Shown: positions 184-39,530 of the stretch, piece by piece
How the letters are laid out: every line of letters begins with the position of its first letter
How positions within the stretch are numbered: the stretch's first letter is position 1
Assembly (NCBI GenBank): GCA_017436325.1
Contig: JAFSDI010000015.1
Coordinates: 1-49,441 of the forward strand
Length of the DNA: 49,441 nucleotides
Direction of reading: 5' to 3'
From: Alphaproteobacteria bacterium
GTDB lineage: Bacteria > Pseudomonadota > Alphaproteobacteria > Rs-D84
Notes under the pieces: model-generated
What the model was told of the DNA's origin: nothing
The model's input: only the letters and a program-made list of their open reading frames with translations
Database searches by the model: none
Translations under genes and position numbers: made by a program

Positions 184-214
184 CTAAAAAACCGCAATGA
201 AAATCCAATGCGGT
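184..214 (-). terminator. Intrinsic terminator inside leader RNA copy 1
   Basis: On the minus strand a CCGCA/TGCGG stem with an inner TG/CA extension is followed by a run of T. The first two stem bases overlap the pseudoknot strand CCCCGACC, so full pairing of one should weaken the other. The exported-protein gene starts about 30 bases further on. Confidence 0.7.
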
Positions 215-422
215 CGGGGAGTTCGAAAATCACCTAAAAGTCTGATTCCGCCAGCCTTCGGGAAACCCTGTTGTATAAACTGACGGCCCCCCGACCTGAT
301 GGCTGGTGGGGAAACAATAAAAGACGCATACGCGCCCTTTTGTCGCGGATTCAGTATCGTTTTGCGATACCGCTTTTAGGTAAGGCTTTCGACAGCCCCG
401 AACCGGATTCCCATCCAGTTCA
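184..422 (-). promoter_or_regulatory. Structured leader RNA, copy 1, of a three-member family
   Basis: Read on the minus strand, the RNA starts near the promoter at 429-458. P1 hairpin: GAACTGG (421-415) with CCGGTTC (406-400), loop ATGGGAAT. A small GGCT/AGCC hairpin follows. P3: ACCTAAAAG (381-373) with CTTTTAGGT (240-232). Inside P3 lie a GTATCG/CGATAC hairpin and P6, CCGTCAG (286-280) with CTGGCGG (254-248), enclosing ATACAACAGGGT. P5 pseudoknot: GGTCGGGG (296-289) with CCCCGACC (219-212), which lies outside P3. The last CC of P5 is also the first CC of the terminator stem. The same helices with other bases occur at 15501 and 28181. The ligand or signal is unknown. Confidence 0.75.
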
Positions 423-428
423 TTTTTT

Positions 429-15494: not shown

Positions 15495-15500
15495 TGTCGT

Positions 15501-15672
15501 GATGTCAGAGAAGTCTGTCATCGGGGGCGTCGAAACCCTTGAAACCAGAGTTCGAGTTGTCGAACAAAAGTCTCCAACCTTTGGTTGGAGGGCGGTGAAT
15601 ATATTGAATAAGCCCGCTATACTGGTTTATAGTTTCGAACCTCCAACCGCAGTTATTTATCGCGGTTTTTTT
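15501..15672 (+). promoter_or_regulatory. Structured leader RNA, copy 3
   Basis: P1: GATGTCAG (15501-15508) with CTGTCATC (15515-15522), one mismatch. Then the conserved CGGGGGCGTCGAAACCCTT hairpin. P3: AAACCAG (15542-15548) with CTGGTTT (15622-15628). P4: GTTCGA (15550-15555) with TCGAAC (15560-15565). P5 pseudoknot: GGTTGGAGG (15583-15591) with CCTCCAACC (15640-15648). Every helix keeps pairing while its bases differ from copies 1 and 2. This copy also has CTCCAACC at 15572-15579, which can pair with the same GGTTGGAG and so compete with the pseudoknot. The terminator starts within the pseudoknot strand. Confidence 0.75.
15645..15672 (+). terminator. Intrinsic terminator inside leader RNA copy 3
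   Basis: AACCGC (15645-15650) pairs with GCGGTT (15662-15667), followed by a run of T. Its 5' arm shares bases with the pseudoknot strand CCTCCAACC. Confidence 0.7.
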
Positions 15673-15696
15673 AGTAAAACAATAATGGAGGTTAAA

Positions 15697-15939
15697 TTGA
15701 GAAAATATATTTTACTTGTTGTATTATGTTTTGTAACTATGCCGGCATTCGCCAGTATTCCATCCAGCGCCTATATGCGCGAAGAAGTCGCATCGCAAAT
15801 AGCAACAGCATTATCAACCAAGGTTGATTCCAGCGAAACTGCAAATCAGACACTGGCAGGAACCTATACGGTCAGCGGTTCTATAACTATAACCGGTGTC
15901 GGTTATGCGCCAACTGCTGAATTGCCAAGTGCGCAATAG
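15697..15939 (+). CDS. Small exported protein, TTG start, 80 aa
   Basis: TTG at 15697 is the likely start because TGGAGG sits 5 bases upstream; the in-frame ATG at 15685 would lie before that site. A signal peptide (RKYILLVVLCFVTMPAFA) is followed by SIPSSAYMREEVASQIATAL, which resembles the N-terminal motif of the proteins at 152 (minus strand) and 28452. The tail is Thr/Ser/Ala-rich (AGTYTVSGSITITGVGY), reminiscent of short fibre or adhesin repeats. The gene lies directly behind leader RNA copy 3 and 19 bases before the repeat protein, likely in one operon. Confidence 0.7.
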   Translation: MRKYILLVVLCFVTMPAFASIPSSAYMREEVASQIATALSTKVDSSETANQTLAGTYTVSGSITITGVGYAPTAELPSAQ

Positions 15940-28144: not shown

Positions 28145-28174
28145 TTGAATTATAATCGATATTTTTGATATAAT
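28145..28174 (+). promoter_or_regulatory. Promoter of leader RNA copy 2
   Basis: TTGAAT (28145-28150), 18-base spacer, TATAAT (28169-28174). The start would be about 28181, again the first base of P1. Confidence 0.75.
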
Positions 28175-28180
28175 TTATTT

Positions 28181-28418
28181 TGAACCTGATGGGAATTAGG
28201 TTCGGGGCTGTCACAAGCCTTATTCCATTCGATGCAGATATATTAATTGTGTCGTAATCCGACAATAATTTTCCGTATTTGCATCGCTATCTTTTTAACC
28301 CTGGCTGAAAAAGTCGGGGGGCTGTGTGTCATACAACAGGGTGCTACCTAAAAACACACAGAATCAATAATGGAATGATTTGTGAACTCCCCGACCGCTA
28401 ATTCTTGTAGCGGTTTTT
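28181..28418 (+). promoter_or_regulatory. Structured leader RNA, copy 2
   Basis: P1: GAACCT (28182-28187) with AGGTTC (28198-28203), loop carrying ATGGGAA. Conserved GGGGCTGTCACAAGCCTTA hairpin. P3: ATTCCATT (28222-28229) with AATGGAAT (28369-28376). P4: GATGCA (28231-28236) with TGCATC (28280-28285). A CTTTTT/AAAAAG hairpin (28291-28313). P5 pseudoknot: GTCGGGG (28313-28319) with CCCCGAC (28389-28395). P6: CTGTGTGT (28322-28329) with ACACACAG (28354-28361) enclosing ATACAACAGGGT. The terminator begins at 28394, inside the pseudoknot strand. It occupies most of the 360-base gap after murA. Confidence 0.8.
28394..28418 (+). terminator. Intrinsic terminator inside leader RNA copy 2
   Basis: ACCGCTA (28394-28400), ATTCTTG, TAGCGGT (28408-28414), then T run. 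The outer two base pairs compete with pseudoknot P5. Confidence 0.8.
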
Positions 28419-28451: not shown

Positions 28452-28964
28452 ATGAAAAAAATTTTAATAAGTGCTGTTTTTGGATTTGGAATGATTATCA
28501 CTGCAAACGCATCGATTATTTCACGAGGTTTTTTTGATGAAGCAATTGCAAAATATGCCCTGAAATCTGATGTTGGTGATGTATCCAGCCTGCAGAGCAA
28601 GATTGGGGATTTTACTGGTTATAATGTACCTGAAAATATGTGGGATAACATTTATACTGCAGATCTAAGAGAACCTGGGCTGGGCGCGTTTTTGACTGGA
28701 CGTGATTGGCAAGCGCCGACAACTATTAGTGATGCAATAAGCGTTTTGTTGGGGTCCCCAGATGATGTTGCGGATGGTGTATTAAATAAGGCATTTAGTA
28801 CAGTTGCCGGCCGTTTAAGAGACCTAGAAATAAGCCGTTTTGGAAATAAATTGCCAAGCACATCAGAAGATGGACAATATGTTTTAACCGCAAAAAAGGT
28901 GGGAAATAATATCACTTATACGTGGGTAAAAATGGATTTGACCAGCGAAGAACAAAGCCAATAG
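28452..28964 (+). CDS. Exported protein with SIxSxxFxDE N-terminus, 170 aa
   Basis: Signal peptide MKKILISAVFGFGMIITANA, then SIISRGFFDEAIAKYALKSDVGDVSSL. This is the same start as the minus-strand gene at 152 (TANASIVSSGFLDEKLTEYAL). The remainder is unfamiliar: GLGAFLTGRDWQAPTTISDAI, then a helical stretch, ending in a strand-rich YVLTAKKVGNNITYTWVKMD. GGGAG sits 6 bases before the ATG. Expression is presumably set by leader RNA copy 2. No function can be assigned; a surface or fibre-like protein is inference. Confidence 0.8.
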   Translation: MKKILISAVFGFGMIITANASIISRGFFDEAIAKYALKSDVGDVSSLQSKIGDFTGYNVPENMWDNIYTADLREPGLGAFLTGRDWQAPTTISDAISVLLGSPDDVADGVLNKAFSTVAGRLRDLEISRFGNKLPSTSEDGQYVLTAKKVGNNITYTWVKMDLTSEEQSQ

Positions 28965-39129: not shown

Positions 39130-39137
39130 TTAAAAAC

Positions 39138-39166
39138 TTGCAATTTCCAGTCTAAAAGACTATAAT
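39138..39166 (+). promoter_or_regulatory. tmRNA promoter
   Basis: TTGCAA (39138-39143), 17-base spacer, TATAAT (39161-39166); start near 39173. Confidence 0.75.
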
Positions 39167-39172
39167 ATATGC

Positions 39173-39530
39173 GCTGCACAGCAGTGATGATTCTGAATCC
39201 GTTGTGAAATAGTCATTTTGGACTGGGGGGCGGTACCCCACAGCTCCACCATTTTTTGATGTGATTGTGTGTTATATCTGAAAATGGGGCTGACATAGAT
39301 TCGACAGATGATGAAAGACAAATTGGGTGAATCTGACATGGTGTCATTAAAAACCACTAAAAAAATGAATGGCGATAGAATCGCTGCGAACGACAATGTT
39401 CGCCTTGCAATGGCTGCCTAAGATGGCGTTGAGCGGGGTTGGCAATTGTTAACCTTGTTCGTTTAAGTTATTGCGGGGTTTGTCGGGTACCTGGCACCAG
39501 AAACCCGACACTTGAAGTTAAGTAAGTAAT
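39173..39530 (+). ncRNA. ssrA: Circularly permuted two-piece tmRNA
   Basis: Rescues stalled ribosomes. The acceptor piece comes first and ends in CAGCTCCACCA at 39251, after the T-arm TGGGG, GGCGGTA, CCCCA. An intervening segment of about 34 bases follows. The coding piece starts GGGGCTGACATAG at 39286. GGGGCTG pairs with CAGCTCC to rebuild the acceptor stem between the pieces, and ATGAT/GTCAT plus ACAA/TTGT can form the joining helix. The tag frame is AANDNVRLAMAA and stop (39383-39421). A nested hairpin at 39481-39510 closes the 3' part. The exact 3' end is uncertain. The permuted form is characteristic of alphaproteobacteria. Confidence 0.92.

Follow-up and report, generated by a model that had tools for sequence, protein, structure and literature searches.

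The window analysed here is a stretch of 49,441 nucleotides from an Alphaproteobacteria bacterium of the GTDB lineage Rs-D84 (contig JAFSDI010000015.1 of GenBank assembly GCA_017436325.1), and it raises the question of what kind of RNA is encoded by three similar stretches within it and what that RNA may do for the genes that follow. An earlier note, made from the letters alone, had described these stretches as three copies of an undescribed leader-RNA family whose helices stay paired although their bases change. All three were recovered at the places given there by a covariance model, R1, built from the nested helices only, with P3 and P5 left out, and the P3 pairs quoted for them (ACCTAAAAG/CTTTTAGGT, AAACCAG/CTGGTTT and ATTCCATT/AATGGAAT) were all located in the sequence (Table 1). 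The fold was compared to dinucleotide shuffles and gave z-scores of -9.3 for copy 3, -7.0 for copy 1 and -6.0 for copy 2. Homology between copies 1 and 3 is plain (86% identity across the first 42 nt), so the description of the sequences as unrelated holds only for parts such as P3 and P5. P6, thought to be weaker in copy 3, is in fact strong there (CTGTGTG/CACACAG, 7 of 7 pairs). Copy 2 is a short, divergent form that was not among the matches of the BLAST searches with two copies as queries.

Table 1. Positions of the leader copies, their parts and neighbouring features in the window.
Feature	Position	Strand	Details
Predicted promoter-like site of copy 1	458-429	minus	sequence scan
Leader RNA copy 1	187..423	minus	R1 hit
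Start codon after copy 1	152-150	minus	exported-type gene, cut by window edge
Leader RNA copy 2, short form	15499..15670	plus	R1, 68.4 bits
Gene after copy 2	15685..15939	plus	84 aa, signal-peptide-like start (ASIPSSAYMRE type), no Pfam family
Predicted sigma70-type promoter of copy 3, TTGAAT-18-TATAAT	28145..28174	plus	1 found vs 1.8 expected in shuffles
Leader RNA copy 3	28180..28418	plus	R1, 226.6 bits
P1 hairpin, conserved GAUGGGAAUC loop region	28182..28203	plus	94.7% paired
P2 hairpin GGCU/AGCC, loop carries P5 5' strand	28206..28219	plus	96.3% paired
P5 5' strand UCACA (variable barcode 1)	28211..28215	plus	partner 28381-28385; 97% paired
P3 5' strand AUUCCAUU (variable barcode 2)	28222..28229	plus	partner 28369-28376; 91.7% paired
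P4 long hairpin CGAUGCAGAUA / UAUUUGCAUCG	28230..28286	plus	90.7% paired
Strand A CCCUGGC, alternative partner of strand B instead of C	28299..28305	plus	
sRNA-Xcc1-like module	28313..28403	plus	RF02221, 32 bits, model positions 1-87, cut-off 53
Strand B GUCGGGG, pairs with strand C	28313..28319	plus	100% paired
P6 hairpin, conserved AUACAACAGG / AAA internal loop	28322..28361	plus	87.7% paired
P7 hairpin AAUC/GAUU, loop carries P3 3' strand	28362..28380	plus	97.4% paired
P5 3' strand UGUGA	28381..28385	plus	
Strand C CCCCGAC, final two bases also in terminator stem	28389..28395	plus	
Intrinsic-terminator-like hairpin ACCGCT...AGCGGTTTTT	28394..28418	plus	
Gene after copy 3	28452..28964	plus	170 aa, signal-peptide-like start, no Pfam family

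BLAST with two copies as queries returned dozens of further copies in the organism's own genome (1.04 Mb, 42 contigs); 40 of the 44 copies listed were aligned, the other 4 being cut by contig ends. Pairs were counted on an explicit structure including both pseudoknots (63 pairs, 2432 cells). Across the 40 copies 93.5% of cells were paired, 41 of the 63 pairs showed double changes (all 8 in P3), and 303 double-change cells were found; none of 500 shuffles reached any of five covariation measures, and slid structures, used as a control, paired in only 30-42% of cells. This covariation shows the fold, and bears out the claim that the leader RNAs form a family whose pseudoknotted structure, with its compensating helices, is under selection. 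The covariance search envisaged in the earlier note likewise found many further copies, with 53 R1 hits in the own genome at E<=0.01, the weakest three (31-45 bits) being less sure. Of 55 stretches picked up when the whole genome was scanned for the pattern, five (L103, L116, L123, L146 and L148) were confirmed by the model; the rest are probably due to chance. What had been noticed in the window is therefore real, and larger than first described.

The family also extends well beyond this genome. R1 hit at least 25 of 30 genomes of relatives, own genome included, and all 18 same-genus genomes searched were positive, with 52 copies in the own genome and at least 1-26 in each of the other 17 (E<=0.001). 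Hits were found in at least 23 of 289 genomes across the class and at least 10 of 398 across the phylum; 5-71 candidates were scored per genome in these multi-genome searches, so that the counts are lower bounds. Similar DNA was widespread on alphaproteobacterial plasmids (249 and 308 of 72,556 records for two queries), and was present in loci of Neisseria, Aeromonas, Pasteurella, Providencia and Arsenophonus and in a few phages. BLAST of the core of locus L162 against phages and E. coli genomes gave no match.

The family was compared with Rfam. At curated cut-offs nothing was found on the leaders, and the riboswitch models had no match in the stretches scanned, which to that extent supports the earlier note, in which no known riboswitch class was recognised. 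The word undescribed does not stand for the whole RNA, since a relaxed scan (up to E 5) placed a sub-threshold match to sRNA-Xcc1 (RF02221) on the 3' half of copy 3, with all 87 model positions co-linear (E 6e-4). Among 32 other own-genome copies scanned, 17 matched this model at the corresponding position (27.7-42.1 bits, E<=1), giving a full-length co-linear match in 18 of 33 overall; the remaining 15 had no match at E<=1, and none of the copies scanned reached the curated cut-off. Eight loci drawn from the groups with similar DNA and from two genomes belonging to other classes were scanned with RF02221; seven of them gave eight sites of 59.1-73.4 bits and L167 gave 48.9 bits, and the leader-type 5' module stood upstream of the RF02221 core in all of these save at one of the two L162 sites. 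The presence of the same 5' module upstream of sites above the cut-off indicates that the Rfam entry covers the 3' half of a longer arrangement. Judged from these matches, the family is neither a known riboswitch nor wholly undescribed, its 3' part of ~90 nt being RF02221-like. It shares with sRNA-Xcc1 the closing stem, a P6-like hairpin with an AUACAA loop, a P7-like hairpin and the trailing strand, in the same order, and most relatives above the cut-off also carry the upstream P2/P3 module. It differs in that Rfam describes only the 3' ~87 nt, and in that the own-genome copies are below the cut-off, lack a match to the ribosome site, and have a terminator before mostly exported-type genes. 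sRNA-Xcc1 itself was observed as an 88-nt RNA (PMC2996969), has been reported in integrons and upstream of symE in Xanthomonas (PMC12444791), and is described in the literature as having targets presumed to lie in trans.

A candidate target for the 3' part emerged from the phage-type relatives (17 rows from 16 loci, L162 counted twice, including L168, in which no gene follows the RNA). Words of the upstream module recur there ahead of the start codon, which gives that stretch complementarity to the P7 loop and the strand that follows it. The ribosome-site match was 5.82 for P7, compared to 4.22 for mismatched partners, and 6.06 for the trailing strand, compared to 4.37 (0/500 permutations each); in 11 of 17 rows, hand-picked for a clear target, the P7-loop target ends 4-12 nt before the ATG. 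Ten downstream proteins, chosen from 15, all carried antirepressor-type Pfam domains (P22_AR_N, KilA-N, ORF6N, Bro-N, pRha, AntA). The upstream module of these loci often ends in a stem and T-run (8 of 16 loci, e.g. L174, L172 and L176), and in loci of this type a GCGG..CCGC hairpin, identified by eye, could replace that stem, suggesting attenuation before the core. The candidate role of P4 as a terminator was considered and set aside: a simple rule was satisfied in 8 of 16 phage-type loci (0.38 expected), the own-genome copies gave no such showing, where one scan listed a single P4 stem of copy 1; another scan, with loops <=8, found none in L171. In most of the plasmid loci L087-L099 a second conserved hairpin, GCGGGGGCGYACCGC-like, separates the core from the small gene that comes next, at the place taken by the terminator in the window's organism.

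The same complementarity was present in loci that were not chosen for target match. RF02221 hit at least 55 of 398 genomes of the phylum, at least 39 of them over the cut-off, and 0 of 14 control genomes; the 20 best-scoring loci, one per genome, were taken as the sample, which has one site in common with the phage-type set (L217, identical to L160). An upstream match of >=6 nt was found for the trailing strand in 20 of 20 loci (mean 7.65, compared to 4.97 for mismatched loci) and for the P7 loop in 18 of 20 (mean 7.00 and 5.50), and a ribosome-site match in 15 of 20 (5.95 vs 4.03) and 12 of 20 (6.35 vs 4.45); 0/2000 permutations equalled the result in each of the four tests. Ten of the 18 downstream proteins were scanned and gave Bro-N in three (one near the cut-off), KilA-N in one, a SymE toxin in one and no domain in five. 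L208 has an RF02221 site above the cut-off immediately ahead of a SymE-family gene whose ribosome site is complementary to it, an arrangement that may explain the Xanthomonas symE/sRNA-Xcc1 integron cassette (PMC12444791).

With two variable loops that match the upstream module and often the ribosome site, sRNA-Xcc1 looks like a two-site antisense RNA of the C4 type, and is predicted to belong to phage repressor circuits. In C4 RNA one loop covers the ribosome site and the other binds upstream, as outlined in PMC5320573, and the family resembles the C4 RNAs of phages P1 and P7 (RF01695) and their Acinetobacter relatives in both features, and also in the presence in one genome of many copies that differ in the specificity loop (PMC5320573). 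The likeness alone is claimed and no homology, since the Rfam C4 models had no match in the loci scanned, save a sub-threshold c4-2 match in L160 (2899-2967, minus strand; 34.8 bits, cut-off 41), ~1.3 kb from the RF02221 site. The closing stem is followed by ACCA in several relatives, which for C4-type RNase P processing from a longer transcript is suggestive only. Among the papers searched, none was found to mention both sRNA-Xcc1 and an antirepressor, and one table in PMC12189769 lists C4 and sRNA-Xcc1 in separate rows. Complementarity of the two loops to both ribosome site and upstream stretch, found in many sRNA-Xcc1 and phage loci, does not extend to the own-genome copies: in the same test on 40 copies the match to the 5' half was clear (0/500 permutations) and the match to the ribosome site was at chance (90/500 and 47/500), so that direct C4-like repression does not transfer to the window's organism. 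Among 66 hits outside the own genome the ribosome-site match was weak (7/2000 and 28/2000 permutations), a few cases carrying the signal.

Transcription attenuators and T-box or riboswitch leaders combine alternative strands with an intrinsic terminator before the ribosome site. The leaders described here have both of these elements, and differ in that specificity appears to reside in variable self-complementary barcodes rather than in a conserved ligand or tRNA site. Taken with the phage and related loci, which point to the 3' part being an antisense RNA like phage C4 RNA, this comparison suggests an antisense or attenuator function rather than a ligand riboswitch. The best reading, with a probability of roughly 0.55, is that the leader, ~170-270 nt long with two parts complementary via P3 and P5, acts as a self-specific attenuator of the following, mostly exported-type gene and derives from an antisense immunity RNA. 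In phage and related loci the P7 loop and the strand after it, which match the upstream module and the ribosome sites of antirepressor genes and of one symE gene, would silence these genes. In the window's organism, which has lost the ribosome-site match and has a predicted terminator between leader and gene, the 3' part may instead dock in cis on the 5' part of the same leader, or a completed leader may dock on one still being transcribed from that locus. Strand B could pair with A in a local hairpin or with C in the closing stem, and docking would decide among these states, and hence between termination and read-through. Antitermination as such is a guess, since strand C shares only two bases with the terminator stem.

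An orphan ligand-binding riboswitch, with the P6 internal loop as its site, A:B against B:C pairing as its switch, and P3 and P5 shaping the fold only, is an unlikely alternative. The unpaired AUACAACA/AAA of P6 is strongly conserved and would suit a ligand or a protein, which counts against the attenuator reading. Alternative strand pairing is common, the A:B hairpin lying below the 5th percentile of shuffles in 39 of 40 own-genome copies and 47 of 58 other copies, compared to only 6 of 15 phage-type copies, and the genes after the leaders of this genome form one regulon type, as judged by their signal-like starts. Against a riboswitch stand the downstream genes, which vary widely among genomes, the ribosome-site matches of the RF02221 and phage-type relatives, the lack of any Rfam riboswitch match in the stretches scanned, and a turnover of P3 and P5 in close copies that is far faster than that of other helices and is unexpected for a mere scaffold.

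This turnover was measured in 32 pairs of copies at least 85% identical outside P3 and P5, which derive from two clusters and so are not an independent sample. Differing positions made up 51% of P3 and 32% of P5, compared to 5% of P1, 4% of P4 and 12% of all other columns together; of the changed P3/P5 pair-cells, 173 were compensated on both sides, 11 on one side, and 6 were broken. Complementarity of the two parts was confirmed independently of R1 in other genomes, where 24 of 28 hits were usable (the other 4 rows were not): cognate complementarity averaged 6.2 nt for P5 and 7.75 nt for P3, compared to 3.2 for mismatched partners (0/2000 permutations), and cognate pairing was also found in the 66 distinct hits outside the own genome, a set that overlaps the 28. 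A full fit (P3 at least 7/8, P5 5/5) was obtained by 31 of 36 copies with themselves and by 9 of 1260 ordered non-cognate pairs, rising to 141 of 1260 when one more mismatch was allowed per helix. Orthogonality is thus partial and the barcodes are largely private. P5 words of ten types common to several copies count against privacy, and three copies around copy 1 of the window have P3 in common (4% difference) and differ in P5. Most copies hold a matching set of pairing sequences of their own, so a leader probably acts chiefly on the gene that it precedes. The barcode turnover among near-identical copies suggests selection against cross-talk or for private pairing, as would be sensible if one leader can encounter another in trans. 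That the RNA is a purely structural cis leader, in which P3 and P5 drift freely while pairing holds, is less probable than a riboswitch. It would account for the lack of a third match at own-genome ribosome sites, for compensation, which is expected of any helix, and for the partial fits between copies, which are not rare at 141 of 1260; against free drift stand the P1 and P4 helices, which change so little where P3 changes by half.

In 31 of 40 own-genome copies the start of a -10 box stands 12-13 nt ahead of P1, and TATAAT was matched at five or more places in 36 of 40, compared to 54% in shuffles; from the position of this box, transcription probably starts at P1. Within the window the promoter-like sites of two stretches were hardly above shuffles (1 vs 1.8 and 1 vs 0.5), and the site of copy 3, found once where shuffles give 1.8, is weak evidence taken alone. 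The terminator-like hairpin, also predicted from sequence, had 98.1% of its stem cells paired in the 40 copies. The aligned 3' ends were set by a terminator rule that held for 41 of 44 copies (two were cut by contig ends and one variant stem was added by hand), so that the ending in a terminator is partly by construction; the final terminator of copy 1 was not picked up by a simple terminator scan.

An ORF on the same strand starts within 160 nt in 42 of the 44 BLAST-listed copies, the other two being contig-cut, and 38 of these ORFs start 20-50 nt after the terminator. By a simple rule, signal-peptide-like starts were found in 38 of 41 readable downstream products, compared to 7 of 39 window ORFs of at least 150 aa; for two of the three exceptions the start may have been misassigned, and the count excludes nine further model hits, two of which precede the same start of an unsecreted 66-aa ORF and two of which have no clear gene. 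Ten downstream products were searched against Pfam, with one glycosyltransferase and no family in the other nine. At C8:32534-32786 (minus strand) of the own genome a copy precedes a small membrane protein with no Pfam match, which we take to resemble a VirB2/TrbC-type pilin. On contig C4 (L181) two near-identical copies stand 0.5 kb apart, each before the same 66-aa unsecreted ORF start, the second copy being cut by the contig end. Elsewhere in the window, an alpha-type tmRNA (RF01849, 151.6 bits) was identified at 39134-39512 on the plus strand, with the permuted tmRNA model also matching and a tag of AANDNVRLAMAA predicted by ARAGORN; its type points to Alphaproteobacteria.

That the RNA is an independent trans-acting sRNA with a promoter and a terminator to itself, placed merely before these genes and acting elsewhere as sRNA-Xcc1 is presumed to do, must be rated slightly lower again. 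Both signals are predicted for the leader, and sRNA-Xcc1 was observed as an RNA of 88 nt (PMC2996969); against it, the short distance from terminator to ORF, mostly 20-50 nt, would hardly accommodate a second promoter. A DNA-level element for recombination or mobility is most improbable, for although relatives occur on plasmids and phages, sRNA-Xcc1 in integrons (PMC12444791) and several own-genome copies at contig ends, the frequent G-U pairs, the promoter placement and the terminator point to RNA. The contig-end copies lie within a few hundred bases of the ends of contigs C3, C6, C9, C15, C29 and C32, near-identical gene starts follow some of them, and repeated leader-gene units probably break the assembly.

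Self-specific attenuation has a wider form, to which we give slightly less than an even chance. A phage-type antisense immunity RNA would have been domesticated and multiplied within this 1.04-Mb genome, such that ~50 promoter-leader-terminator units, each with a private barcode in two parts, serve as independent, self-recognising switches for dozens of surface-protein genes, and the whole sRNA-Xcc1 family would be a three-site antisense system, composed of upstream mimic, core and ribosome-site target, that silences antirepressors and SymE-type toxins. The analysis gives sRNA-Xcc1, known since 2010 with guessed targets, a specific, testable target and logic, and offers an explanation for its standing before symE in Xanthomonas integrons. 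The ~50 largely privately barcoded leaders of this small alphaproteobacterial genome are a natural library for the origin of orthogonal antisense pairs.
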